In this document: one piece after another, positions 27,405 through 39,696 of the stretch | How the letters are laid out: every line of letters starts with the position of its first letter | Position numbering within the stretch: the first letter of the stretch is position 1 | Source: Deltaproteobacteria bacterium | GTDB taxonomy: Bacteria; Desulfobacterota; Desulfobacteria; Desulfobacterales; Desulfatibacillaceae | NCBI GenBank assembly: GCA_016235345.1 | Contig: JACRLG010000013.1 | Location: forward strand, 1 to 64,000 | DNA length: 64,000 nucleotides | Direction of reading: 5' to 3' | Made by a program: the position numbers and the translations under genes | Notes under the pieces: model-generated | What the model was told of the DNA's origin: nothing | Seen by the model: only the letters and a program-made list of their open reading frames with translations | Databases searched by the model: none

Positions 27405-28958
27405 CTATCCGAAAATGGCGTTTATGAAACAGCCCCCGCTGTCGGGAAGAATCACCGTGAGTTCGTCTTCCACTATAGGGGTGGGAATGGACGGGCCTAT
27501 GGGGTCGGTGATTACGCCGTCGGCCACCCCGTCCGCATCGCCCCAGCCTCCGTCTATCAGGAGAACCCTGAAGGTGCGGCTGTTCACCTTGGTCACGTAA
27601 GCTGAGTAATCGTACCAGCCCGTGAAATAGCTCCACTTGTACCAGATATTGTTCGCCGGTGTGTCGTAGTTGAGCCGTAGGGTGGCAACCACCTGGGCTC
27701 CGATGGTTGGCGTCTTGATTTTAAAGGTGACAAGCCCCACGGGAAAGGTGCGCGGCGCGCTGCTTATGGCCGAGGACGGAAGAGCCTGGATGCTCTCGAT
27801 CTTGAACCCCTGATCCTTGTATTCGTTCAGGTCCACTCCGAAAAGCGCGTTTCCGGTAAAGGTTTTGACCACCTTTATGCGATCGGGCTCAAGGTTGTCG
27901 TCGGTATCGTTGCCGTTTAAGTCCGTGCCGTCCGGGGCCTGCTGCCAGGGAAGGATTCCCCTGCCGTTGTCAACCTTAAGGGACCAGACCTTGTTCGTGC
28001 GAAGCTGCTCAAGGTTGATGCCGCCCGCAACGTAAATGACATAGCCTTCGGAATCCGAACCCGCCAAAAAAGTTGTGTTGCCCGACACGCCTTCGGGCAG
28101 GGATTCTGAAATTTCCCAGGAAAGCCTAACAGCCGGATCGTAAATCGCCACGGCCTGGCTTGGGAAGGCCGCCATGCCCTGGTTGCCGCCGATCAGGAAA
28201 AACCTGTCCCTTACATTCGGAACAATGTGCCCTGTGGGAAAGCGCCTTGGTATTTTAATGGTTCCCATGTTTAAGGTGTACCAGGTATCGGTGCGAATGT
28301 TATAGGCAACCACGTTTCCGACCGGGCCGCTTGAGTTCTGCCCCCCCATCAGGTAGACGGTGCTTCCCGCAAGACCCATTGCCGGCCCCCCGGTCAGATA
28401 TTCGGCAGGAATGACGGTGGCTTCCCGCCAGGTCTTCAGGGCCGGGTTATAGGCAAGCACGCTCTGAACCAGGTTGCCGTTGTTGTCCGCGCCGCCGAAT
28501 ACGAAAATTTCCTGGCCCCAGATGGTGGTGGTGTAGGTTACGCAGTTTGCCTGGGCCGTCAACGGCAGTCTTGGGATTTCGTCGCTCAGTATCCCGGTGG
28601 CCGGGTCATAGCTCTTTTCGAAATGATCGATCAAAAGGCCGTTGAAATGCCCGCCGAACATGTAGAGTTTGCCGTTCGTCTCAGTTCCCGTTATGTCCCT
28701 CACCCCCGTTGCCTGGTTGACGGTGCTCCAGGTATTGGCTGCCGGATCGTATATTTCCAGCGAATTTACGAGGTTCGTTCCGTCATAGCCCCCGTAAACG
28801 TAAAACTTGCCGGAAAATGTCCCGGAAGCGCTGCCGTCTCTGGCCACGTTCATGGGCGCACGGGCGGTCCAGGCGGCCCAAGCCCCGCTGGCCGCCATGA
28901 GGCAAACAACCAGGGCGATGACCGGATAAATCATTTTTTTGGCGGAGAAAAAGCGCAT
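27405..28958 (-). CDS. Exported kelch-repeat protein with choice-of-anchor U domain
   Basis: 517 residues from ATG 28958; a longer in-frame reading (from 29003) lacks a signal peptide at its start. Signal peptide RFFSAKKMIYPVIALVVCLMAASGAWA. Residues about 25-300 are kelch repeats of the form (YVYGGYDG, YMFGGHFNG, FVFGGADNNG, YLMGGQNSS, FLIGGNQG) that form a six-bladed propeller. About 390-510 match a choice-of-anchor U domain (SGP...GW.DYSAYV.KVN.RTFRVLLIDGGWGDADGVADGVI). The C-terminus ends SGGCFINAIFG, close to the GGCFIATAAYG-type C-terminal cysteine motif of many secreted proteins in this phylum, but very short. Likely cell-surface or secreted; ligand unknown. Confidence 0.8.
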   Translation of the reverse strand: MRFFSAKKMIYPVIALVVCLMAASGAWAAWTARAPMNVARDGSASGTFSGKFYVYGGYDGTNLVNSLEIYDPAANTWSTVNQATGVRDITGTETNGKLYMFGGHFNGLLIDHFEKSYDPATGILSDEIPRLPLTAQANCVTYTTTIWGQEIFVFGGADNNGNLVQSVLAYNPALKTWREATVIPAEYLTGGPAMGLAGSTVYLMGGQNSSGPVGNVVAYNIRTDTWYTLNMGTIKIPRRFPTGHIVPNVRDRFFLIGGNQGMAAFPSQAVAIYDPAVRLSWEISESLPEGVSGNTTFLAGSDSEGYVIYVAGGINLEQLRTNKVWSLKVDNGRGILPWQQAPDGTDLNGNDTDDNLEPDRIKVVKTFTGNALFGVDLNEYKDQGFKIESIQALPSSAISSAPRTFPVGLVTFKIKTPTIGAQVVATLRLNYDTPANNIWYKWSYFTGWYDYSAYVTKVNSRTFRVLLIDGGWGDADGVADGVITDPIGPSIPTPIVEDELTVILPDSGGCFINAIFG

Positions 28959-29109
28959 GTCTGGCCCTTTCCGAGAGGCTGTGGTTTTCGGCCTGCGGCC
29001 CAAAGGATGGTTGTTTAGAGTCGAAATCAGGCTGTTCAGGGTTTCCGGGCGGGCGACAGGCCATCTTCCGGGTTTGCTTTTAAGCCTCCAGACGCCCCAA
29101 GGTCCTCCG

Positions 29110-29670
29110 TCAAAAATCCTTTGGCCCGAAAATGACCGGCGGCTGGGCGGCTGGAGAACTTTTGGCCGGCGCGGGTTTGGCCGCAGGGGCCTTTGATTCG
29201 GGCGCAGTCCTGGAATCCGCCTTGGGCGGCGCTGACTCCTTTTTGGTTGGGGGCGCAGCCGGGGGGTCCGCCTTCTTTTTTTGCGGCGGCTTGGGTTTGG
29301 GTAAAAATTCCTGCACGAAACTCAATGGCATGGGCTTTTCGGTTTTGAGCAATTCCCTTGGGATGACCAGCTTCTCGTCTATTTCAATCTGGTTGGGGTT
29401 CATGCCTGGGTTCGCCTTGGCGATTTCCTCCCAGTTGCTCATTTGTCCCGTGTACCATTGAGCGATGATGGACAGGGTTTCACCCGGATATTTCACCGTA
29501 TGGATATAGGGTGCGGGCTTTTGGGGGCCGGCTGAGGGAGGGGCGGCCACTTTGGTTGCCTTGCCCCGGCCCGGGGCCCCGCCGGGCTGCCTGGCGCCGC
29601 AGCCCAAAACGCCGGAGATGAAAACCACAGCACAGACTGCCGCAGCCAGAATGACCAGGGCGCGGCGCAT
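29110..29670 (-). CDS. LysM lipoprotein
   Basis: 186 residues. I take the ATG at 29670, giving the signal MRRALVILAAAVCAVVFISGVLGC with lipobox SGVLGC; the in-frame ATG at 29700 would put ten residues inside the kinase gene. The LysM domain follows at about 55-105 (HTVKYPGETLSIIAQWY and LVIPRELL). The rest is a Pro/Ala/Lys-rich, low-complexity tail. LysM binds peptidoglycan N-acetylglucosamine. The ATG overlaps the stop of the upstream kinase gene (TGATG), so translation is coupled, suggesting a shared role in cell-wall sensing. Confidence 0.8.
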   Translation of the reverse strand: MRRALVILAAAVCAVVFISGVLGCGARQPGGAPGRGKATKVAAPPSAGPQKPAPYIHTVKYPGETLSIIAQWYTGQMSNWEEIAKANPGMNPNQIEIDEKLVIPRELLKTEKPMPLSFVQEFLPKPKPPQKKKADPPAAPPTKKESAPPKADSRTAPESKAPAAKPAPAKSSPAAQPPVIFGPKDF

Positions 29671-31439
29671 CAGGCTTGGGGATTTTGCGATTTCAACCAT
29701 TTTAGGTACTCTTTGGCCTCAGAGTTTTGAGGATTTAGGGAAACGGCCTTTTCCAGATTTTTCAAACTTTCCTGCCGTTTGCCCATTTTGTCCTGTACCG
29801 CAGCCAGGTTGGTCAGAACCTCGTCCAGAAAGGGCGGTGTAAGCCTGGCCGCCTTTTCATAAAAGGATTCCGCCTTTGGATAGTCGCCCGTCACCGCATA
29901 GATGTAACCCAGGTTGAAAAAAGCCTGGACAAACCCGGGGTTTATCCTTGTCACCGTGCCGAATTCATCGATGGCCTTTTTGTAATCCTTTTTGGCAAGA
30001 TGAATCCTGCCAAGAAGGAACCGGGCGTCTATATCGGCGGGATTTAGCGTTACGGCCCTTTTCAGCATGGCCTCCGCCGAACCTGTTTCTTTCATATTAT
30101 AATGCCTGCGAGCCTCTTCCACAAGGGCCCTGGCGTGCGCCGGAACATGGGCGGGATGCTTCGCAGGGTCAAGCCTGGCCGCCTCATCGAAAAGAGAGAC
30201 CGCCTCTGTATAATTTTGTTGTTCCAGGGCCAGCAGTGCAGGTTGCCAGTGGTCTTCGCCAGTATCCAGAAGAAAGTAAACCGCAGCCCCTACAATGGAC
30301 ATGAGAATTACAGCAATTATCGACCATTTGGCCCTCGCCCTTCCCTGCTTTTTACGCAGGTCCCGGACCACCTCCTCGTCGGAAAAAAGCGTGCCGTCTT
30401 TGTCCTGTTTTTCAGCCACCTTTACCGTTGTGGCCTCCCGAGGCTCTTCCGCATTGCAGCCAGGCGATTCGCAGGACTCATTTTTAAGCACGAAACGCTT
30501 GGTTTTTTCCTCCTCCTCTATCTGCTCGGAGTAAAGCTCCTGCATGTAGTGGGCCAGAGTGCGTGTGGAGCCCCGGAAATTGAGGGCAAAAGCGGCTTCC
30601 TCGACGTCCGCCAGCATCTGGCCGCAACTCTGGTAGCGATGGTCCGGGTCAGGCTCCAGCGCCTTTTGAAGAATATCGAGGATCATGGGATCGATGTCCG
30701 GCTTGACGATTTGGGCAGGCACGTAGTCAGCCTCCCTGACCTTTGCCAGCACCTGCATCGTCTCTCCCGTGAACATGCGGCTTCCGGTTATCATTTCATA
30801 AAACAGGATGCCCACCGAAAAAATGTCCGAGCGGTGATCGATTTCCTTGCCCTGGGCCTGCTCCGGCGACATGTATGCCAGCTTGCCCTTGATTATCCCG
30901 GTCTGTGTCGTGGTGTTCTTGCTGGACGCCTTGGCCACGCCGAAATCAACGATTTTGACTGTTCCGTCGTAGGATATGAAGATGTTCGGCGGGCTTATGT
31001 CCCTGTGGATTATCTTGAGCGGTATGCCGGACAGGTCGGTCAGCGAGTGGGAATAGTCCAGGCCGTCGCACACCCGCCCTATGATGAAAAGCGCGTGGTC
31101 CGGGGAAATCTCAATTTTCCTGATGGCGGCCCTGTCCATCACCATGCGCAGGTTTTTGCCGAAAAGGTACTCCATGGCGATGAAATAATCGTTCTCCATG
31201 GTGCCGAAATCATAGATGCGGATGATGTTTTCATGCTGAAGAAAGGCGGCGAGCTTGGCCTCGTCGATGAAGGAGTCAACGAGTTCCTTTTCAACGGCAA
31301 GGTGGGGCAGTATCTTCTTGATGGCGATGAGCTTTTGAAAGCCCTCGTCGCCTGTCATCTTGGCTCGGTAGAGCTGGGCCATTCCGCCCGTGGCGATCTG
31401 GTCCAGCAGCAGGTATTTTCCAAACCTTACAGGTTCCAT
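29670..31439 (-). CDS. Membrane Ser/Thr protein kinase with TPR repeats
   Basis: 589 residues from ATG 31439 (MEPVRFGKYLLLDQIATGGMA); a TTG at 31523 would add 28 residues with no ribosome site. The kinase is complete: glycine-rich loop near residue 13, IAIKK lysine, catalytic HRDISPPN, DFGVAK and YMSPEQ. Near residue 375 a membrane segment WSIIAVILMSIVGAAVYFLL links to a periplasmic region with four TPRs (LFDEAARLDP, MLKRAVTLNP, ARFLLGRIHL, FYEKAARLTP). This is a PknB-like sensor kinase with periplasmic TPRs rather than PASTA domains. It is translationally coupled to the LysM lipoprotein. Targets unknown. Confidence 0.85.
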   Translation of the reverse strand: MEPVRFGKYLLLDQIATGGMAQLYRAKMTGDEGFQKLIAIKKILPHLAVEKELVDSFIDEAKLAAFLQHENIIRIYDFGTMENDYFIAMEYLFGKNLRMVMDRAAIRKIEISPDHALFIIGRVCDGLDYSHSLTDLSGIPLKIIHRDISPPNIFISYDGTVKIVDFGVAKASSKNTTTQTGIIKGKLAYMSPEQAQGKEIDHRSDIFSVGILFYEMITGSRMFTGETMQVLAKVREADYVPAQIVKPDIDPMILDILQKALEPDPDHRYQSCGQMLADVEEAAFALNFRGSTRTLAHYMQELYSEQIEEEEKTKRFVLKNESCESPGCNAEEPREATTVKVAEKQDKDGTLFSDEEVVRDLRKKQGRARAKWSIIAVILMSIVGAAVYFLLDTGEDHWQPALLALEQQNYTEAVSLFDEAARLDPAKHPAHVPAHARALVEEARRHYNMKETGSAEAMLKRAVTLNPADIDARFLLGRIHLAKKDYKKAIDEFGTVTRINPGFVQAFFNLGYIYAVTGDYPKAESFYEKAARLTPPFLDEVLTNLAAVQDKMGKRQESLKNLEKAVSLNPQNSEAKEYLKWLKSQNPQA

Positions 31440-31740
31440 GTTTGGCAGACTGCCTGATGTGACGGTCAAAACGGTCGGTTGGCTTTCCGGGCGCCATCGG
31501 CCTCGTGAAATACATTGTTCCAAACTTTAGCATTATCACCGATGGACCCAAGGTTCCAGGGAAAAATGACAAATTGGGCAACAGCGATATACAATTGCGG
31601 CTAATACAACGGAATCATTATGAGGAAGCGCGAAAAACCTCCAGCCCAAACCAAACGGCGCGTTCGGAAAAATATCCGAACGCGCCGTTTGGTTAAATAG
31701 GGCTTTCGGCCAGAAAAGCGGGCCGACCTATAATTTCGCG
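31440..31740. other. Intergenic region with a long perfect inverted repeat
   Basis: Between the kinase start and the FadL-like stop, both on the minus strand. AACCAAACGGCGCGTTCGGA (31649-31668) and its exact complement (31675-31694) are separated by AAAATA, a 20-bp perfect stem. It may end transcription from the FadL-like gene, although no T-tract follows in the leftward direction. The rest of the stretch is AT-rich and may contain the kinase promoter. Confidence 0.55.
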
Positions 31741-33354
31741 CTAAAACTGATATGAAATACCGGCGGTTATGATCAATGCCTCGGTTTCCTGGTAAACGTC
31801 CAGGCCCGCGTATGGATTGTAAATCAGGCTGGTCAGTTCGCGGGTGTTCAGAAGCTGGCTGGTCGTACCGTCGTTCTGCTTGTAAGATATGTCCTCGCCT
31901 TTTACGACTGATATGCCCACATCCAGATTTGTGTCTCTTGTAAGCCTCACTCCGAAGCCCCCTGAGTAGAGAGTCAGGTCGGGCAGCGCGAACATAAGGT
32001 CTGCATAGGCCGGATTTACCGAAGAAGGCCGCTTTTCATAACCCAATCGCAGGGTCAGCCAGTCAGTGGGCATCACTTCCAGGCCAAAATGATAGTGAAC
32101 CGTATCCTTCATGTAACGGGGCAGCACCAACCGCTGGTTTCCGCCCGTATAACCTATGAGATAGGCAAGCTGCATGAGCTGGATATTCTGGTCAAATTGG
32201 AAGATGTTCGCTTCCATGGATGACCACTGAATCCAGTTGACGTCGGCCAGAAGCTTCAGCTGCTTGATGGGCTTAAGCATTATGCCGCCCTGCACCCGCC
32301 TTGGAAACTCGAATTCTATATTCGCCCTGCCCCTCTGATAATCGAGGGCGCCGGTTGTGGGAAGGCCGAGGGCTTCGGAGATGATGGCCATCAGGTCGTT
32401 GGCCACAAGCCAGTCCATCAGGTTCTGGAAACGCTGGCCATAGCTCAGTGTGTAGGTTCCAGAAAACTTGGCCCGGCTTTCACTCTGGTAGCAAATACCT
32501 GCGGCGAACCAATCCTTGGGCTCCCAAAGAAGGCCGACATTGTAGGATGTGGTGAGATTGTCCTGAAGATTGTCTGCGGTCATGCGCCCCTGGCTTTCGA
32601 ACGGATCGAGACCTCCGCCGAACAGGGGAAACGGAATAAGGCCAAGGGTGAGAATGTCCGGCAGGCCCTTGGTCAACTCGCCGAGAACGCCGGTCAGGGC
32701 CACCAGATCATTGGGAGCCCTCATTTCCATGCGCACGCCCATTGCGCCGGACCCGATGCCTATGGACAAACCCGCCGAAAGCGTATCGGTGATTTTGTAG
32801 GCAATGCCGGGCGAAATAACCAGCCGTTGCTGGTACAGGTACTGCGCGTCGTAGATGACGCCGGAAGGAGGCCATTCAAGACCCACGGCAAAGGGAGCGT
32901 AAAGAGCCGCGCCCACCGCCCAGCGTTCACCGGACGGATGCCAGCCATAGCCGACGTTGGGCGCAACGAGAAATCCCAAAGAGGCGGGACCTGAAAAAGG
33001 TATGTTGATGCCTGCGCCAATGGTTTCAGCGCTGGTTCCGGCAACGGGATCATAATCGTAACCGAAAAAGTCATCCCATCCCGGAGGGGCTTCAAAACGG
33101 GCCTTTATCCCGAAATTGGCGTATGTCGTACCCAGGTCGAGCTGTTTTCCCCTTATGCGCGTGAGCCCGGCCGGATTGTAATGAACCGACATCGATCCCG
33201 GAGGGTCTGCAGACAAGGCGTTGCCCAGGGAAATTCCCTTGGGGCAGATGGCCATTTGCTCGTGCATGGCCGCCTGGATGGATGCAACCGGCAAGCATAA
33301 GGCGGCCAACACCACGACCACCGACTTCAACGGTTTTTTGAAGGCAGATAACAC
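31741..33354 (-). CDS. FadL/OMPP1-type outer-membrane transporter
   Basis: About 537 residues from GTG 33354, chosen so that the signal peptide begins LSAFKKPLKSVVVVLAALCLPVASIQA; a TTG at 33399 would extend it by 15. The mature start, ISLGNALSADPPGSMSVHYNPAGLTRIRGKQ, carries the NPAGL signature of the FadL/TodX family. The rest is a 14-strand barrel with long loops, ending SYQF with a terminal Phe. FadL proteins import hydrophobic molecules across the outer membrane. It is the last gene of the four-small-protein, C39-peptidase, barrel series, though 185 bases separate it from the next gene upstream. Confidence 0.8.
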   Translation of the reverse strand: MLSAFKKPLKSVVVVLAALCLPVASIQAAMHEQMAICPKGISLGNALSADPPGSMSVHYNPAGLTRIRGKQLDLGTTYANFGIKARFEAPPGWDDFFGYDYDPVAGTSAETIGAGINIPFSGPASLGFLVAPNVGYGWHPSGERWAVGAALYAPFAVGLEWPPSGVIYDAQYLYQQRLVISPGIAYKITDTLSAGLSIGIGSGAMGVRMEMRAPNDLVALTGVLGELTKGLPDILTLGLIPFPLFGGGLDPFESQGRMTADNLQDNLTTSYNVGLLWEPKDWFAAGICYQSESRAKFSGTYTLSYGQRFQNLMDWLVANDLMAIISEALGLPTTGALDYQRGRANIEFEFPRRVQGGIMLKPIKQLKLLADVNWIQWSSMEANIFQFDQNIQLMQLAYLIGYTGGNQRLVLPRYMKDTVHYHFGLEVMPTDWLTLRLGYEKRPSSVNPAYADLMFALPDLTLYSGGFGVRLTRDTNLDVGISVVKGEDISYKQNDGTTSQLLNTRELTSLIYNPYAGLDVYQETEALIITAGISYQF

Positions 33355-33539
33355 GCGTTCAATCCCAGGCCCGCAAAGGTCATTAAAATGAAGCTGCAAA
33401 AAACCGGACGGTTATCCATGTCGCCCGAAAAAAGCAGGCGCCATTTCAAGATATGTTGCGCCTATGCCTCCGAACCGGAACTTTTGCATGATTAGCCATG
33501 AAAGCCTGCTTCAATTCGGTCCTCTCCTCCGAACGCCAG

Positions 33540-34610
33540 CTACAGCGTGAAATCAAAGGGGATGGAAACCATCAGGGAATAGTCTTCCAGGCCCACGAGG
33601 CCATAGCCCAGGCTTATGTTCAGACTGGATTTGGGGGTGATGCGCCATCCGCTGCCGATTATGAACGAAGCTGATGATGATTCGTCCGACTCGTAAAGAA
33701 ACCCGTTTACAACGAATTCGGTTGCAGCCGCATGGGAGGCGCTGAAACGGAAGGTGACGGAAGTGTTATACGACAGGGCGAATCCGATGCCCATTGCGTA
33801 ACTGAATCCATAACCGGGCTTGACCTCCTGGAGCACGGTCCCGTAACGCAGCTGGTTCAATCCGTCAACATCCAGGGAATATGTCAATCCGAAACCGCCG
33901 AAGGCTATGACGGGATCGATGACTTTGCTGATGTTCAAGCCCACGTTGAAGGTGTGAAGGCCGGAGCCGGTGGAAAGCTCCTTGGCGATGTCAACCTTAT
34001 AGGGGCTTCTGCCGGAAGGAGCGGTATATCCTAAAGACACCAGCACTGCCGGCTGATATTCCGCCTCCCTGGCCAGCTGCCAGGAAGCGCCGAATGAAGC
34101 ATCGCCGAGATCGGATTCCTGCATCGAGGTGCCGGATTTCTGATACTTGAACACGAAAGGAATGGACGCATTTATTGACAGCCTGGGCAACAATCCGTAG
34201 CTCAGGCCAAGACTGTTGACGAAGTTGAAATAAGTCTCCCTTTCAATGTCCAGCTCGGATGAAACCCTGTCGTATGAAGAATGCGTATAGCTCAGGCTGT
34301 AGCGCATTTCTATTGTGCGCTGCTTCAAAAGCACGTACTTGGCCGCTTCATCCTCTGAAGCCTTCAGGACATCCTCGGTTCTGTCCTTTTGCTCCTGGTC
34401 CTTGTCCGTAGGCATGAGCGCAGTTCTAGCCTCGGCTTCTTTTTTATAGAATTCGAGCTCTTCCTCCATTGCCTGGACGCGCTTTTGAAGAGCTCTTACG
34501 GGGTCTTCCCTCTGTACAGCCGGGCTTTCCCCTTCCTCGCATTGGGCCGTGTTTCCCCAAAAAAGGAAGAAACACAGGCAAAGAGCCGGAAATATGAGTT
34601 TGCGTGACAA
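33540..34610 (-). CDS. Coiled-coil plus beta-barrel outer-membrane protein (FapF-like)
   Basis: 356 residues from TTG 34610; AAGGAG sits seven bases upstream and the signal peptide SRKLIFPALCLCFFLFWGNTAQC follows at once. Residues about 35-85 are charged and predicted coiled coil (RALQKRVQAMEEELEFYKKEAE). From about 100 come alternating strands, rather like a 12-strand barrel, ending DYSLMVSIPFDFTL. In Pseudomonas Fap systems FapF has this same plan: coiled coil, then a barrel that forms a trimeric secretion pore for amyloid subunits. Here it directly follows a C39 peptidase gene, as FapF and FapD do in their locus. I infer an export pore. PF13557-type barrels share this shape, so substrate is not proven. 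Confidence 0.65.
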   Translation of the reverse strand: MSRKLIFPALCLCFFLFWGNTAQCEEGESPAVQREDPVRALQKRVQAMEEELEFYKKEAEARTALMPTDKDQEQKDRTEDVLKASEDEAAKYVLLKQRTIEMRYSLSYTHSSYDRVSSELDIERETYFNFVNSLGLSYGLLPRLSINASIPFVFKYQKSGTSMQESDLGDASFGASWQLAREAEYQPAVLVSLGYTAPSGRSPYKVDIAKELSTGSGLHTFNVGLNISKVIDPVIAFGGFGLTYSLDVDGLNQLRYGTVLQEVKPGYGFSYAMGIGFALSYNTSVTFRFSASHAAATEFVVNGFLYESDESSSASFIIGSGWRITPKSSLNISLGYGLVGLEDYSLMVSIPFDFTL

Positions 34611-34974
34611 CCAGAGGCTCCTTTCGCTATGACGGACCAGGACGGGATCTCCTGTCAGAAACACTGCGCTTGTTCAAATACCTTCATGAAATTGACAGGA
34701 CAGTAAAATACCGTTTTGCTTCAAATGACAAGACAAAATATCGTGATTGCCCGACGATGAGCCTGCTCGCCTTCAGCCTTTATTACCAGGAACGCAATTT
34801 ATTTCCATTCTCCGCTTTACAGAAGATAATGGAGGTGGAAGGCCGGGATACTTCTTCCCGCATCGGGCTTTCCTTGAAAAAGGAAAAGAACCATGCTCCG
34901 CTTAATAACACCCCAGCAGGCAATACCGTTATCTTTGAACGGTCAGCGTTGAAATAGGGTGGCTGCGCTTTCGA
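34611..34974. other. Intergenic stretch between C39 peptidase and barrel gene
   Basis: 364 bases, more AT-rich than its surroundings. The C39 stop is at the right end and the barrel gene's start at the left. I see no confident small gene. A weak minus-strand promoter-like pair (TTGTCA with TTTTAC about 17 bases on) lies around 34700-34730, so the barrel gene may be transcribed separately. Confidence 0.3.
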
Positions 34975-36756
34975 TCACTTGCTGCTGGTGATCTTTACGG
35001 TCCCTTTTCCGGTCACAATTGCAGTGTCGGACTGCACCGTAAAAAAATGGCTTTTCTGGACTGCGCTGCTGGAACCTGTCAGGCTTGCACCGATGGACAC
35101 GCCGCCCTTTTGTCCGCGAAAGGCGATTCCGGTAATGAAATCCGCCTCGAAGGAGGCTGCCAGAAGGGAAGGATTGGGCGTTGTGGTTATCCTGATGTCA
35201 CGGGCCATTTCATTATCTATAAAACGGATATCCGACTTGGACAATTCAAGACCGTGAAAACGCCTGCGGTTTTGCTGTGTGCCGGTGTTACCTGCGCCGT
35301 TGCCGAATCCGTTTCCGTTCCCGAATCCGTTTCCGTTGCCGAAACCGTTGCCGTTACCGAATCCGTTTCCGTTGCCGAACCCGTTGCCGTTACCGAATCC
35401 GTTGCCGTTGCCGTATCCGCCGCTTGCACCGTAACCGTAACCGTTACCGGTTCCATAAGCGCCTGCGATCAGGTTTCCGTCACCGTTCCCGTGTCCGTTG
35501 CCCTGGCCGTAACCATTGCCCCATGCAACGGCCACGTTGCCGTCTCCGTTGCCCTGGCCATATCCGTTGCCCTGGCCGTAGCCGTTGCCCTGGGCATAGC
35601 CGTAGCCGTTACCCTGGCCGTAGCCGTTGCCCTGGCCGTAGCCGTTGCCCTGGCCGTAGCCGTTGCCCTGGCCGTAGCCATTGCCCTGGCCGTAGCCGTT
35701 ACCCTGGCCATAACCATTACCCTGACCGTAGCCGTTGCCCTGGCCGTAGCCGTTACCCTGGCCATAACCGTTACCCTGGCCGTAGCCGTTGCCCTGACCG
35801 TAGCCGTTGCCAACGCCATAACCGTTTCCGACTTCGCCGGTGGCCACCACAGCGTTGCCATAACCGTTGCCGGTGCCGTTTACGTTGGCGTTCCCATAGC
35901 CGTTGCCGTTGCCGGTGCGATTATCAGGATAACCGTATCCCTTGGCTATCAGGGAATCCGGCAAAGGAAGGCCAAGACCTAAGGCGTTCAATTCTTCGGG
36001 TGAGGAAGGTATCGGGTATTCATAGCCTGACGGCTCTTCGTAGCCGCTTCCCGTGTTTCCGTGCCCGTTGCCGCCCTGTCCGTGTCCGTTGCCGCCGCCC
36101 CTTCTCCTGTATTTGGCCACTCGCCGGGGTTGCGGCCTTGGGGTTCCATCCGGCTGACGGAAGGCGTTGCGGGCAGACTTGGGCAACACCACGAAAATGA
36201 CGTTCTTATACCACATTTTTTCAAATTTGGAGATGGGGTAGGAAATGTTGCCGACAGACGGGTCTGCGACAAAAATATGATCCTTGTAAACGCCCTTCAC
36301 AACCACAAAATGCAGGTAGCCATAAAGGTCGATCGAGACGATGTATGGTATGTTCAATTTTTTTATGTCGTCCATGTCCGTCTTGTATCCGTGGGCCTCG
36401 TAACCAAGGGCTTCAACCAGACTTTTCATGTCCAACAGGGAAAATGCGCGGGTTTCCGAAATCCTCTGAACATCTCCGTAACGCAATAATCCATTGATTA
36501 TCTGTGATTCGCCCAGATTTTCTCCGAGATAATAATTGAGCAGGGTGGTCAAGGCTGCAGACCCGCAGCTGTAGTCGTACATCTGCTTGGCGATATTGTG
36601 ATAGCGTCTGTCGGACAGCGAGCCCACCCTTTGCCTCGGATAGGTGGATGCATACACTCCGCCATCAACGGAATAAACGCCGTCTTCGATGGAATTCGGC
36701 TCATAAAAGCCGGTCAGCATTGCCACTCCGATTAAAAAACCTGCGATGACATGCAT
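34975..36756 (-). CDS. C39-like peptidase with long GNGYGQ/GNGFGN hexapeptide repeats
   Basis: 593 residues. The N-terminus has a hydrophobic stretch (VIAGFLIGVAMLTG). The C39-like domain spans about 50-200, with QMYDYSCGSA (Gln58, Cys64), YLHFVV (His149) and FVADPS (Asp165); all catalytic residues are present, in a FapD-like order. After a basic linker (APRPQPRRVAKYRRRGGG) come Gly/Asn/Tyr repeats: 11 uninterrupted GNGYGQ units (316-381), then variants, and six GNGFGN-type units (about 451-486). The last 90 residues are a separate folded-looking domain (FHGLELSKSDIRFID...). In known systems, C39 peptidases process exported leader peptides. The repeats look amyloid-prone. No clear Shine-Dalgarno. 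The gene follows four small candidate substrate genes. Confidence 0.8.
   Translation of the reverse strand: MHVIAGFLIGVAMLTGFYEPNSIEDGVYSVDGGVYASTYPRQRVGSLSDRRYHNIAKQMYDYSCGSAALTTLLNYYLGENLGESQIINGLLRYGDVQRISETRAFSLLDMKSLVEALGYEAHGYKTDMDDIKKLNIPYIVSIDLYGYLHFVVVKGVYKDHIFVADPSVGNISYPISKFEKMWYKNVIFVVLPKSARNAFRQPDGTPRPQPRRVAKYRRRGGGNGHGQGGNGHGNTGSGYEEPSGYEYPIPSSPEELNALGLGLPLPDSLIAKGYGYPDNRTGNGNGYGNANVNGTGNGYGNAVVATGEVGNGYGVGNGYGQGNGYGQGNGYGQGNGYGQGNGYGQGNGYGQGNGYGQGNGYGQGNGYGQGNGYGQGNGYGQGNGYGYAQGNGYGQGNGYGQGNGDGNVAVAWGNGYGQGNGHGNGDGNLIAGAYGTGNGYGYGASGGYGNGNGFGNGNGFGNGNGFGNGNGFGNGNGFGNGNGFGNGAGNTGTQQNRRRFHGLELSKSDIRFIDNEMARDIRITTTPNPSLLAASFEADFITGIAFRGQKGGVSIGASLTGSSSAVQKSHFFTVQSDTAIVTGKGTVKITSSK
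35299..35406 (-). repeat. Six tandem 18-bp repeats encoding GNGFGN
   Basis: Six 18-bp units within the C39-like gene. Units differ mainly at third codon positions and at one T/C exchange (Phe codons), so they are older than, or less recently homogenised than, the GNGYGQ array. Confidence 0.85.
35609..35806 (-). repeat. Eleven tandem 18-bp repeats encoding GNGYGQ
   Basis: Eleven uninterrupted 18-bp units; nearly all differences are synonymous (TTG/TTA-type changes at third positions, CAG/CAA-free). The encoded hexapeptide is invariant. Flanking partial units extend the array on both sides (a GNGYGYAQ variant and a GNGYGV unit). Confidence 0.9.
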
Positions 36757-36976
36757 GGCGTCACAACCCGTTGCCGATTTTGATGCGTAATGAAAGCTGA
36801 AAAACTGGGCCCTTGCGTCGTGTACCGAGTGATTACAAACCAGACTCTGGCCGACTCTTGACGACTAAAATATAAGCGCCCCGACACGCTAACGGATAAC
36901 CTGAAAAAAGGCAAGCCCGGCGACCGCGATGCCCGCCTCCGCTACTGCTTTGTTGTTGACATGAAACAAAGGCGAT

Positions 36977-37003
36977 GCCCTCCGCCTGGCACCGGCGGAG
37001 GGC
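36977..37003 (-). terminator. Perfect hairpin after the first small TGQ protein gene
   Basis: GCCCTCCGCC (36977-36986) pairs perfectly with GGCGGAGGGC (36994-37003) around a seven-base loop, between the small-protein gene at 37049 and the C39 gene. A T-run lies on the plus-strand side and only scattered T's lie leftward, so it may be an mRNA-processing or partial termination site within the series rather than a complete terminator. Confidence 0.5.
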
Positions 37004-37048
37004 AGTCCTTTTTTCTTTACACCACAAATCCGTGCAGAATCCGGCGGA

Positions 37049-37531
37049 TTAGTCGTGGCCGGTGATCTGGGTGGTCATGCTTCCGAGGGTCAGGTTGAAA
37101 ACCAAGTGACCAAGGGAGTTGCCTTCGTCATACGCAAGGCCGGAACGGGTCACAACGGTGCTGTCGATGAAGATATTCGCAACGCCGCCCACAACGGTCA
37201 GAGAGGGAATGCCGATGGTGAGCCAGCTGGTGCCGCCGACGCGGCAGATGTCGATGGTCTGGCCGGTGATGTTAAGGCTGGAGACCGTGATGCCGGACAG
37301 GGTCAGCCATCCGTCGGTGGTGGCGGTGGTGCCGTTGCAGCCGTCAGAGTCACCCCAGGCCACATGGCCGTTGAGGATCGAGAGCTGTGCGTTCATGGTG
37401 ATACCGGTCTGGCCGGTAAGGGCCGCCATCTCGGTGTTGGACATTTCGTCCATGTCCATGAAGGCGTTCATGCCTGCCATTGCGGCGACGGGAACCATAA
37501 GAAGAATCAAAGCCAATGCCAACTTCTTCAT
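37049..37531 (-). CDS. Small exported TGQxG protein 1
   Basis: 160 residues; the second ATG (37531) has GGAGG seven bases upstream, the first (37537) would be too close. Signal peptide KKLALALILLMVPVAAMA. The mature start carries MSNTEMAALTGQTGITMNAQ, the motif L/VTGQxG(I/M)T also seen in the next two paralogues. It shares VAWGDSDG with them, and ends TTQITGHD. The rest is rich in Thr, Ser, Gly and Val with alternating strands. It resembles the DUF6160-type proteins (compare the FilA component of Acinetobacter). I infer a secreted subunit processed by the C39 peptidase. Function unproven. Confidence 0.65.
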   Translation of the reverse strand: MKKLALALILLMVPVAAMAGMNAFMDMDEMSNTEMAALTGQTGITMNAQLSILNGHVAWGDSDGCNGTTATTDGWLTLSGITVSSLNITGQTIDICRVGGTSWLTIGIPSLTVVGGVANIFIDSTVVTRSGLAYDEGNSLGHLVFNLTLGSMTTQITGHD

Positions 37532-37719
37532 TTCCATACCTCCTCTTTAGTTTGATTCGTTACATGTTGTGAAAGGCAAATCCCGCCAAGAAAATGCCCT
37601 TCGTGTTCAACGCGTGAAACTGTGACACGCGAAGAATTTTACTGCAATTTTTCCACCCACATTGTTGCGGCACAGCACCATGCGAGTGAAGCTGCGTAAA
37701 TTTTCAGCATTGCCGCCGA

Positions 37720-38184
37720 TCAGGGATTCGCATGTCCTGAGATGCGAATCGTACCGAAAGACACCGCCATCCCGGCGATGCGCAACTCGCCAAGGGACTG
37801 CGTTGTTGAAGTGGCTGAAGACCCCACAATGATGGATTGAATTGTAAGGTTGCCGGTAATGATGTTGCCCGTAGTTTCAAGGGCTACATAACTGACGCCG
37901 CCACCGGTGCCCACGTCGACTACAACGTTGCTCAATGCGATGGTGGGAAGGGTGACGCCGTTGTAAATGAGCCAGGCTGCGGTGGTGTAGGTGCCGAACC
38001 CGTCTGAATCGCCCCATGCTATGGTGGATGCGGTCAGGTTCATCGACATATTCACGGTCATGCCCACCTGGCCGGTTACACCCTCGAACTCCATTTCCTC
38101 ATCCATCAGCACCATGCCACCAAGCGCCAGGGCCGGAAAAACTACCAGCATGATAATGACGCCAATTCCGGTTGTACGCTTCAT
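37720..38184 (-). CDS. Small exported TGQxG protein 2
   Basis: 154 residues; signal peptide KRTTGIGVIIMLVVFPALALG. Motif EGVTGQVGMTVNMSMNLT, then IAWGDSDGFGTYTTAAW. It is closely related to the gene at 38223 (same TTGNIITGNLTI..SIIVGS, same C-terminal GTIRISGHANP), so the pair is a recent tandem duplication. AAAGGA sits six bases before the ATG. Likely a secreted beta-rich subunit. Confidence 0.7.
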   Translation of the reverse strand: MKRTTGIGVIIMLVVFPALALGGMVLMDEEMEFEGVTGQVGMTVNMSMNLTASTIAWGDSDGFGTYTTAAWLIYNGVTLPTIALSNVVVDVGTGGGVSYVALETTGNIITGNLTIQSIIVGSSATSTTQSLGELRIAGMAVSFGTIRISGHANP

Positions 38185-38222
38185 GTTGTTTCCTTTACGC
38201 CAAAAAAAGCCAAAGAGCCAGC

Positions 38223-38684
38223 TTAGGGATTCGCATGGCCTGAGATGCGGATGGTGCCGAAGGACACGCCGATGCCGCCGACGCGAAGCTCGCCAAGGGA
38301 CTCGGTGGTGGCCGTTGCGGTGGAGCCCACTACGACGGACTCAATGGTGAGTGAACCGGTGATGAGGTTGCCGGTGGTGGCCAGGGCGATGTAGGACACG
38401 CCCGCGCCGGTACCCTGATCGACTACCAGGCCGTTGATGCTGATGGTGGGAAGGGTCACGTTCCTGAGGCGCAGCCAGCCGGCGGTGGTGTAGGTGCCGA
38501 AGCCGTCAGAGTCGCCCCATGCAACATCGGTGGCCACGACGTTCATCGACATGTCGATGGTCATACCGACCTGGCCGGTTACGTCTTCCAGTTCGAGCTC
38601 GGAGGCGGTGGTCATGCCTGCCATTGCCGAAACCGGCGCCAAAAGAAGAAGCATTGCCGCAATAACCAGAAGCTTTTTCATCAT
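38223..38684 (-). CDS. Small exported TGQxG protein 3
   Basis: 153 residues; two adjacent ATGs (38684 and 38681) follow AGGAG. Signal peptide KKLLVIAAMLLLLAPVSAMA. Motif LEDVTGQVGMTIDMSMNVV, then VAWGDSDGFGTYTTAGWL. The C-terminal two thirds nearly match the gene at 37720, ending GTIRISGHANP. Third of four tandem paralogues. Confidence 0.7.
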   Translation of the reverse strand: MMKKLLVIAAMLLLLAPVSAMAGMTTASELELEDVTGQVGMTIDMSMNVVATDVAWGDSDGFGTYTTAGWLRLRNVTLPTISINGLVVDQGTGAGVSYIALATTGNLITGSLTIESVVVGSTATATTESLGELRVGGIGVSFGTIRISGHANP

Positions 38685-38787
38685 TTTCTCCTTTTCCTGC
38701 TTGTGTTGTGGTTACCCGCGCGCTTACGGCGTTGCCCGCAGATGTCAATCCAGGCCGCCCCAAAAACCGGCCCGGCTAAAAAACGGT

Positions 38788-39321
38788 TTAATGTCCCCAA
38801 ACCCAGATGGCGCTATCGGGGGCTGTTGTTATGTTCTGAACGTAGATGCCGTAGGCCGGCCCGCCGCCGTTGGGCTCGTCCCAGCCCAGGGCCGCCCCGC
38901 CCGCGTTGCCTATGCGGACCCAGTCTATGGATATCCGGCCCGTAATGGTTGGAAGCCCAATGGCAACCATACTGACGGTGCCGGCCCTGCCCGCGTCCAG
39001 CTTGTAGCCGTAAAGGCCTATGCTGCCGGTTCCGGCGGTATCCGAAAGGCGGACGTTGTCCAGTATAAGGTAGCCTTTATAGTCCGTGCCGGAGTAGGCC
39101 GGTAAAATCCCCCCGACCACGCCGTCGTTGTCACGCAAAAAAATTGCGGTGGCCGTGGCCCTGGCCGCAGGAAGGTCTATAGTCACTCCCGTTTGGGCGC
39201 GGGTGTCCGAAAGCACCTCGTCGTCCAAGGTAACCATTCCGGCAAGGGCCGAAACCGACACGAACACCGCCGCCATTATGAACGGCGCAAGAATACCTGC
39301 CCTGATGCGAAACCTTTTCAT
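38788..39321 (-). CDS. Small exported TGQxG-like protein 4
   Basis: 177 residues; the most divergent of the four. Signal peptide RFRIRAGILAPFIMAAVFVSVSALA. The mature start is MVTLDDEVLSDTRAQTGVTIDL, an equivalent of the TGQxGI motif with QTGVTI. It has IGLPTITGRISI where the others have ITGNLTI, and ends IWVWGH. It is the first gene of the series, about 115 bases downstream of a promoter at 39440-39469. Likely a distinct subunit (for example a cap or initiator). Confidence 0.6.
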   Translation of the reverse strand: MKRFRIRAGILAPFIMAAVFVSVSALAGMVTLDDEVLSDTRAQTGVTIDLPAARATATAIFLRDNDGVVGGILPAYSGTDYKGYLILDNVRLSDTAGTGSIGLYGYKLDAGRAGTVSMVAIGLPTITGRISIDWVRIGNAGGAALGWDEPNGGGPAYGIYVQNITTAPDSAIWVWGH

Positions 39322-39696
39322 GGCCGATCCAGACCGCCGCTTTTAAAAGTACGGCTGATATATCCCCAAGGACAACCATGATTCCCTGTGGGCGTTAAAT
39401 TCTTATGGAACATGGGATTGGTGCAGACGGTTGACAATTGATATATCCGAACGGCAAGTTCTTTGTCAACAGAAAAAGGGCAATTTTGCCTCGACCGGGG
39501 GGCCTGTTGGACCGGATTTCCAATCCAGGCGCTTTAAAGGGGCAAGTTCCTCATTTTGCACGGACAAAAATGAGGCAATTTACCCCATTTGAAAAGAGCG
39601 CGGGTTGCATGACCCGAAAAGGCCTAAGGAAGGAAGGCGATGGCAATGCCCGGGCGGCCAAACTTGCCGGGGAAGGTGCATCGGGCTTCATTGCCG
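39322..39696 (-). promoter_or_regulatory. Promoter region of the small-protein/C39 series
   Basis: Minus-strand TTGACA at 39464-39469 and TATATC at 39440-39445, separated by 18 bases, form a good sigma-70 promoter for the leftward series starting at 39321. The leader is about 110 bases. The remaining stretch (39470-39696) shows no gene that I can support. Confidence 0.6.

Follow-up and report, generated by a model that had tools for sequence, protein, structure and literature searches.

The window analysed here, a 64,000-nucleotide stretch of contig JACRLG010000013.1 (positions 1 to 64,000; assembly GCA_016235345.1) from a bacterium of the family Desulfatibacillaceae, carries on its minus strand seven open reading frames (ORFs) in series at positions 31741–39321. 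Pfam and NCBIfam scans identify them as four filA genes followed by filB, filC and filD, and the locus is thus a complete filABCD (Fil) locus in a relative of Desulfatibacillum. It is a Fil variant, counted as new because of its peptidase, and it exposes a specific processing site that can be tested. Its FilA proteins are probably the subunits of a surface fibre that is made by a two-leader route, in which the C39 peptidase FilB would cut a second leader that follows the Sec signal peptide. For this organism we infer all three of leader cleavage, secretion and the formation of a fibre.

A predicted second leader in the FilA proteins

Directly behind the signal peptide, the FilA proteins carry the pattern L/M...L/M..V.GQxG. 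An earlier note on this window had described four small proteins with a TGQxG motif; three of them have it, and the fourth, FilA1 (38788–39321), has RAQTG. Our 30-row training set (A2) held 26 rows picked with a regular expression that required [GA]QxG, together with the four FilA proteins of the window, and is therefore itself uninformative on that motif. Because selection by the motif was to be avoided, we built a profile from the mature part of FilA alone and ran it on the 4164 ORFs of the loci. This gave 84 distinct matches, of which seven were dropped for an unusable N-terminus and 77 were retained.

With positions counted from the predicted cut behind G-Q, these 77 N-termini have Gln at −1 in 71 cases, Gly at −2 in 68 (Ala in 8) and Gly at +2 in all 77. 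The residue pairs at −2/−1 are GQ (65 proteins), AQ (5), GA (2), and AA, GR, NQ, AG and AR (one each). Hydrophobic residues (L, I, V, M or F) occupy −15 in 74 proteins, −12 in 71, −7 in 76 and −4 in 63; at −16, −11, −10, −8, −6, −5 and −3 they occur in 0–3 of the 77, and at −14, −13 and −9 in 9–12. The counts for the 48 proteins not used in training are in agreement (Gln in 42, Gly in 41, a hydrophobic residue at −7 in 47, at −12 in 45 and at −4 in 39). All three of −4, −7 and −12 are hydrophobic in 36 of 52 non-redundant leaders, compared with 22 of 1029 controls placed at Gly residues of the mature regions, and 47 of the 52 leaders fit when Ala or Thr is also allowed at these positions. The segment behind the last [AV]xA site is 15 or 16 residues long in 53 of the 77 proteins; 12 have no such site. 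This sequence pattern suggests that the TGQxG motif closes a second leader placed after the Sec signal, and its spacing is the one that double-glycine C39 peptidases read. No description of a FilA or FapE leader was found in the titles, abstracts and passages of the mostly open-access literature searched.

In the window, the predicted second leaders lie on the minus strand at 39193–39240 in FilA1 (GMVTLDDEVLSDTRAQ, an AQ variant), at 38571–38618 in FilA2 (GMTTASELELEDVTGQ), at 38068–38115 in FilA3 (MVLMDEEMEFEGVTGQ) and at 37409–37456 in FilA4 (DMDEMSNTEMAALTGQ); these positions are putative. FilA4, with Met at −12, Glu at −8, Met at −7, Leu at −4, Gly at −2 and Gln at −1, is the only one of the four that fits strictly at −4, −7 and −12. 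The AlphaFold2 (AF2) model of FilA2 shows a helix at residues 29–36, which correspond to −10 to −3, and then strands. When the 52 leaders were scanned against NCBIfam with hmmscan, the only matches besides FilA were to three double-glycine-leader families of bacteriocins (with 6, 2 and 1 members; the best E was 0.021), and 52 control windows from the same FilA proteins gave no NCBIfam match. Pfam returned DUF6160 for 46 of the leaders and one unrelated weak match. Residues 28–51 of FilA4 match a lantibiotic model weakly (E 0.14).

A solved filament that begins at the predicted site

The FilA profile matches PDB entry 9xfv, a 25-chain structure named "bacteria pilus (like)", at E 1.2e-11. The match spans the chain from its first to its last residue and covers profile positions 39 (equal to +1) to 150, with no residue before +1; the last residue is a C-terminal His. 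The entry also ranked first in a VIA-align comparison with the FilA model (Z 6.1, root-mean-square deviation (rmsd) 6.4, 99 residues aligned), where model residues 40–150 are paired with chain numbers 39 to 210. Should 210 be its last residue, the chain would start at 38, and the residue that follows G-Q in the FilA of Pseudomonas indica is also residue 38. The deposited chain, whose first residue aligns with +1, is thus without signal peptide and leader. The structural alignment is too weak by itself, so the link between 9xfv and FilA rests on the sequence profile; a Foldseek search of the PDB with the FilA model had no match that reached E 0.001, and 9xfv was missed when FilA2 alone served as the query sequence.

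The subunit of this karst-cave filament belongs to the FilA family, starts at the predicted mature N-terminus and ends in His, but it differs in its 173 residues, which include a long stretch not in FilA, and its gene and operon were not found in the genomes and plasmids searched (0 of 293 genomes, no plasmid match). Surface fibres, which the earlier note had raised as a possibility, are likely, as this nearest solved relative of FilA is named a pilus-like filament. In this way a pilus-like filament from the environment, solved but anonymous, is connected with a family of genes, with a peptidase and with a pore for export. A C-terminal His is found in 61 of the 84 FilA-like proteins and in 9xfv, compared with 180 of the 4164 ORFs overall.

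A putative leader of similar design in FapE

In the available parts of the 2017 work on the Fap system, the target of FapD is called unclear and its class of C39 peptidase is said to be possibly using another recognition sequence; Rouse et al. regard FapE as the likeliest target because of its GG and GA motifs (PMC5557850). We found that the gene next to fapD encodes, in seven of seven cases from six genomes, a segment behind the signal peptide with Leu at −12, Glu at −8, Leu or Met at −7, Gly at −2 and Arg or Lys at −1; at −4, five have Leu and two have Gln. The FapE model is matched by each of the seven segments, although in two cases the match is weak (E 0.0034 and 0.0015), and Pfam added one unrelated weak match. 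The FapE leader is similar to that of FilA, with G-R/K at the site, and thus bears on the FapD target. The site falls at residue 38–39 of the shortest ORFs, so the roughly 70 missing residues are only partly explained by it. With the FapD target having been left open, the leader gives a testable site both for FapE and for every one of the four FilA proteins in the locus.

The locus shares with Pseudomonas Fap a pore of FapF fold, a related C39 peptidase and, in FapE, a leader of similar design. It differs in that its small proteins match none of FapA, FapB, FapC or FapE, in its FadL-type FilD, and in having G-Q rather than G-R/K. Two side observations concern Fap itself. The FapD C-termini of four loci (L155–L158) read DAELM[DE][FY]GFIQSDFF, with V-x3-E-L-x2-F/Y spacing that may be due to chance, and one genome (G496, locus L171) holds two fapD sets in tandem. 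Their leaders are of the FapE type (SDSELxQQRGRFV), and a further small exported protein there has ASIRGR in its N-terminal part.

Conservation of gene order and co-occurrence with DUF6160

The earlier note had asked whether the gene order recurs in relatives, and it does. Among the named FilB loci, the best 80 of at least 584 confirmed stretches, filB, filC and filD are consecutive on one strand in 78; the other two (L047 and L062) run into the end of a contig. Such loci were found in Desulfobacterota, Pseudomonas, Marinobacter, Oceanospirillales-type genera and Moraxellaceae. Of the 80 loci, 49 have a FilA-like gene that either the mature-part profile or the pattern of the leader recognises.

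Among 389 genomes of the host's class, FilB (E up to 1e-15) occurs in 61, DUF6160 in 59 and both in 50. With the nine weak FilB matches set aside, DUF6160 is found in 50 of 52 genomes that have a strong FilB, compared with 9 of 337 others (Fisher p 4e-51, a value that ignores shared ancestry); with the weak matches retained, the figures are 50 of 61 and 9 of 328.

Several FilA-like genes were seen away from fil loci. The host genome has one at about 335654–336130 of its contig C23, one at the start of contig C25, and a larger ORF of 427 residues with a DIQAQTGL site at about 206900 of contig C28 (L175:5655-6131 and L174:3598-4881 for the first and the last). Another genome of the host genus (G001) holds four tandem FilA-like genes on another contig (L172:2514-5549), with no filB in the stretch read.

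Proposed route and alternative explanations

On the two-leader route, FilA would cross the inner membrane via Sec, and signal peptidase I would leave a short leader, usually of 15–16 residues. FilB, facing the periplasm and probably anchored in the membrane, would bind this leader as a helix of the double-glycine type and cut after G-Q, as the spacing and the start of the solved subunit suggest, so that the mature chain would begin with xG(I/V). By analogy with FapF, the mature chain would then exit via the FilC pore and join a pilus-like fibre, with FilD in an accessory role. An apparent second, hidden cutting signal in the fibre proteins suggests what the unusual periplasmic protease of the system cuts.

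A number of observations weigh against this route. Within the locus, FilA3 has Asp at −12 and fits poorly, FilA2 has Ala at −12 and FilA1 has Thr at −4, and the FilA2 model that shows the helix is of low confidence (mean predicted local distance difference test (pLDDT) score 63.6, predicted template modelling (pTM) score 0.40). Few of the leaders match double-glycine models, and those only weakly (best E 0.021), so that these matches are a sign only. A FilA-like protein downstream of one FilD (L058:17298-18254) has a signal peptide and no leader. The chain of 9xfv may start at +1 through disorder or because earlier residues were not modelled. One paper names GG, GA and GS as the cleavage sites of C39 peptidases; Gln at P1 falls outside these, and the LahT pocket narrows there. 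A leader-derived score does not support the idea that the FilB tail mimics the leader. DUF6160 occurs without a strong FilB in nine genomes, all of them many-contig drafts and two of them from the host family (G002 and G004), and a strong FilB occurs without DUF6160 in two. Finally, no FilA was found near filB in 31 of the 80 loci, 25 of them from Marinobacter. In favour of the route, all six Marinobacter genomes that were searched out of these 25 (those of loci L056, L066, L072, L074, L076 and L106) hold 3–8 DUF6160 genes elsewhere, some with frames of about 800 residues, and the eight such proteins read all carry the leader, for example ELKAMNDTAMGDITGQ|AGVTI, although PF19657, with which they were retrieved, extends over the leader itself. 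As these genes lie away from filBCD, the exporter can serve substrates that are encoded far away. The FilA-like protein without a leader can be regarded as a natural exception to the pattern.

We consider it unlikely that xGQxG only marks the start of a folded domain or an interaction with FilC, with FilB cutting instead the FilC linker, its own insert or a partner not seen here. The Gly at +2 and a hydrophobic residue at +3 are as conserved as the leader, both the FapF linker and FapE have been proposed as targets in the accessible parts of the Fap work (PMC5557850), and a conserved island, PEE[LI]NALGL, lies within the insert of FilB; however, the hydrophobic positions are −4, −7, −12 and −15 and not their neighbours, the leader is mostly a separate short segment between the [AV]xA site and the motif, and the 9xfv chain starts at +1. 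It is rather improbable that the locus exports a functional amyloid in the manner of Fap, FilA being the amyloid subunit. The FapF-fold pore, the FapD-like peptidase, the predicted all-beta structure of FilA after the leader, and the Gly/Asn/Gln/Tyr-rich insert of FilB would suit such a function, but with E values up to 1 allowed, none of the models for Fap subunits is matched by the four FilA proteins (the earlier note had likewise recognised no FapA, FapB, FapC or FapE), and the nearest solved FilA relative is named a pilus-like filament. No test result points to amyloid in particular.

The export of soluble proteins or peptides without any fibre, as proposed for GG peptides of the Neisseria Nap island, where a C39 peptidase is likewise paired with a FapF homologue (PMC11798529), seems to us quite improbable for this locus. 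FilA paralogues do lie away from the locus, which speaks for this reading; on the other side, FilA is listed as the fibre (Fil pilus) subunit of Acinetobacter sp. Tol 5 in the portions available of one source (PMC11784438), and 9xfv is a filament entry. The Nap substrates are small cationic GG peptides, and the passages available make no mention of FilA or FilD (PMC11798529). Returning to the two-leader route, there is about an even chance that it holds jointly and more broadly: that stand-alone periplasmic C39 peptidases of the kind of FilB and FapD read a bacteriocin-like second leader directly behind a Sec signal (G-Q in Fil, G-R/K in FapE), that FilA pili such as 9xfv are a widespread class of fibre so made, with substrates beside or far from the exporter, and that the Desulfatibacillaceae peptidase gained a Gly/Asn-rich domain that may tether it or be exported. 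If so, Fil pili and Fap amyloid would share one two-leader export logic.

The FilB peptidase and its repeat insert

FilB (34975–36756, minus strand, 593 residues, hydrophobic N-terminus) matches the FilB model at E 5.8e-52 and the FapD model at E 1.6e-36, in line with the C39-like peptidase proposed earlier. Domain scans place its C39 domain at 36190–36597. Residues Q58, C64, H149 and D165 are invariant in 16 of 16 sequences, and we presume their catalytic roles from the C39 family. Among solved sequences, the FilB profile matches 12 with an E no higher than 0.001, and each is a peptidase of a double-glycine-type ABC transporter (LahT, bacteriocin transporters and ComA). FilB thus shares its peptidase family and the leader spacing with LahT, PCAT1 and ComA; in contrast to these transporter parts, it is a stand-alone protein, is predicted to face the periplasm, and has substrates with a Sec signal and mostly G-Q. 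A second C39-domain protein of the host genome is a 194-residue open frame (G000:C23:214536-214922, locus L002).

The repeat-bearing FilB is the genuinely unusual part of the locus, and the repeats reported earlier proved to belong to a family-specific insertion. The Gly/Asn/Tyr/Gln-rich insert (residues 194–499; 35260–36177, minus strand) has a conserved island, IPSSPEELNALGL, at residue 249 and contains an 18-bp tandem array of 14.4 copies (35546–35811, minus strand) that encodes 14 GNGYGQ units, with synonymous differences between units. In our sample of nine Desulfatibacillaceae genomes, host included, all seven that bear FilB have an insert between the C39 domain and the conserved tail. 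Five complete inserts are 212, 217, 305, 306 and 352 residues long, and two cut by contig ends have at least 158 and at least 246 residues; they consist of 23–38% Gly and 11–22% Asn, are built of GNGYGQ, GNGHGN, GNGYGN or GNGNGF units, and share the island IP[ST][ST]PEE[LI]NALGL (7 of 7). Our plainest guess is that the insert is a flexible tether of variable length between the catalytic domain and the tail. No comparable insert was present in 54 other FilB genomes of the class or in 77 other named loci. Two long frames (G107, 374; G119, 358) were rejected as inserts, since both proved on reading to be N-terminal extensions; in 24 further genomes of a phylum sample, frames ran up to 387 (that one, in G687, unread).

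The FilB tail (34978–35259, minus strand) carries the motif LxLSxxDIRFID. This motif lies 12–16 residues past the C39 domain in short FilB proteins and 221–361 residues past it in long ones. The general pattern, LxL[TK]xxDLRxID, is found in 91 of 95 FilB proteins, duplicates included (three of the four misses are due to contig ends), compared with 12% of shuffled tails, and its L-x3-[DE]-L-x2-I spacing is that of a double-glycine leader. A role of the tail as a cis pseudosubstrate was rejected and survives as no more than an idea: the leader-derived score ranks it first in only 16 of 80 FilB proteins, and the printed scores lie within background.

The FilC pore and the remaining genes

FilC (33540–34664, minus strand; FilC model E 5.7e-43, FapF E 2.8e-17), whose true start may lie near 34610, was earlier described as a coiled coil and barrel resembling FapF, and the structural check bears this out. 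In its model (pLDDT 82.6), helices at residues 36–64 and 68–83 precede the barrel, the first 18 Foldseek matches are all FapF structures, and comparison with FapF (PDB 5o65) gives Z 24.4, rmsd 2.9 and 265 aligned residues, the next family being COG4313 at Z 20.4. By its model, then, FilC has the FapF fold; the gene also matches Phenol_MetA_deg in the Pfam and NCBIfam scans.

The four FilA proteins are FilA1 (38788–39321, 177 residues; an exported DUF6160 protein, 29.9 bits, E 6.7e-7; NCBIfam FilA E 5.3e-11), FilA2 (38223–38684, 153 residues; DUF6160 E 1.1e-9), FilA3 (37720–38184, 154 residues, 64% identical to FilA2; DUF6160 21.4 bits, under the 27-bit cut-off) and FilA4 (37049–37537, 162 residues; DUF6160 E 1.5e-8), all on the minus strand. 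The model search that the earlier note proposed thus put three of the four above the Pfam cut-off for DUF6160, and matched none to a Fap subunit. FilD (31741–33399, minus strand) is a FadL-type barrel (Toluene_X E 4.4e-46, FilD model E 8.6e-91). From filA1 to filD, the intergenic gaps are 103, 38, 182, 292, 310 and 140 bp. All four FilA proteins match the NCBIfam FilA model at E 5e-11 to 3e-6, far under its 220-bit cut-off; FilB scores under its curated 475-bit cut-off, and FilC and FilD score under theirs.

The seven genes lie at or near the positions first reported. The locus does belong with the Fap/Fil systems, but it is not the divergent Fap locus that had been suggested: all its parts match the Fil set best, and a FadL-type FilD with FapA, FapB, FapC and FapE absent is therefore what is expected for a Fil locus. 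What had been called an extra FadL barrel is FilD, a standard Fil part. The locus shares with the Acinetobacter fil operon the four protein families (pilus_FilA to FilD) and the B-C-D order, and differs in its four FilA genes, its long FilB repeat insert and its scores under the NCBIfam cut-offs. The available text on the Acinetobacter operon gives it six genes, including FilE and FilF (PMC4751259); here, the five flanking proteins scanned gave no match named FilE or FilF, the presence of such models in the library being unverified. Downstream minus-strand genes (27405–31523) encode a Ser/Thr kinase with TPR repeats, a LysM protein and a kelch-like protein with a choice-of-anchor U domain.

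Promoter region and intergenic hairpin

The promoter placed earlier at 39440–39469 fared poorly: TTGACA is present, but the second hexamer, TATATC at 18 bp spacing, was not reported by the promoter scan, and the region has 8 promoter-like sites compared with 5.6 ± 2.2 in shuffled sequences. An Rfam scan added nothing. Between filA4 and filB lies a strong RNA hairpin with an 11-bp stem (36976–37004, minus strand; minimum free energy −32 kcal/mol, z −4.9; none of 200 shuffles equally stable). No hairpin above 7 pairs was seen between filA4 and filB in two relatives (G005 and G008), and three have one at the same place (19 pairs in G003, 14 in G007 and a weaker one of 10 in G006). The hairpin is possibly an attenuator or an mRNA-stabilising element, and it may separate high expression of filA from lower expression of the machinery. 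A run of T comes after the hairpin on the plus strand, where it resembles a terminator.

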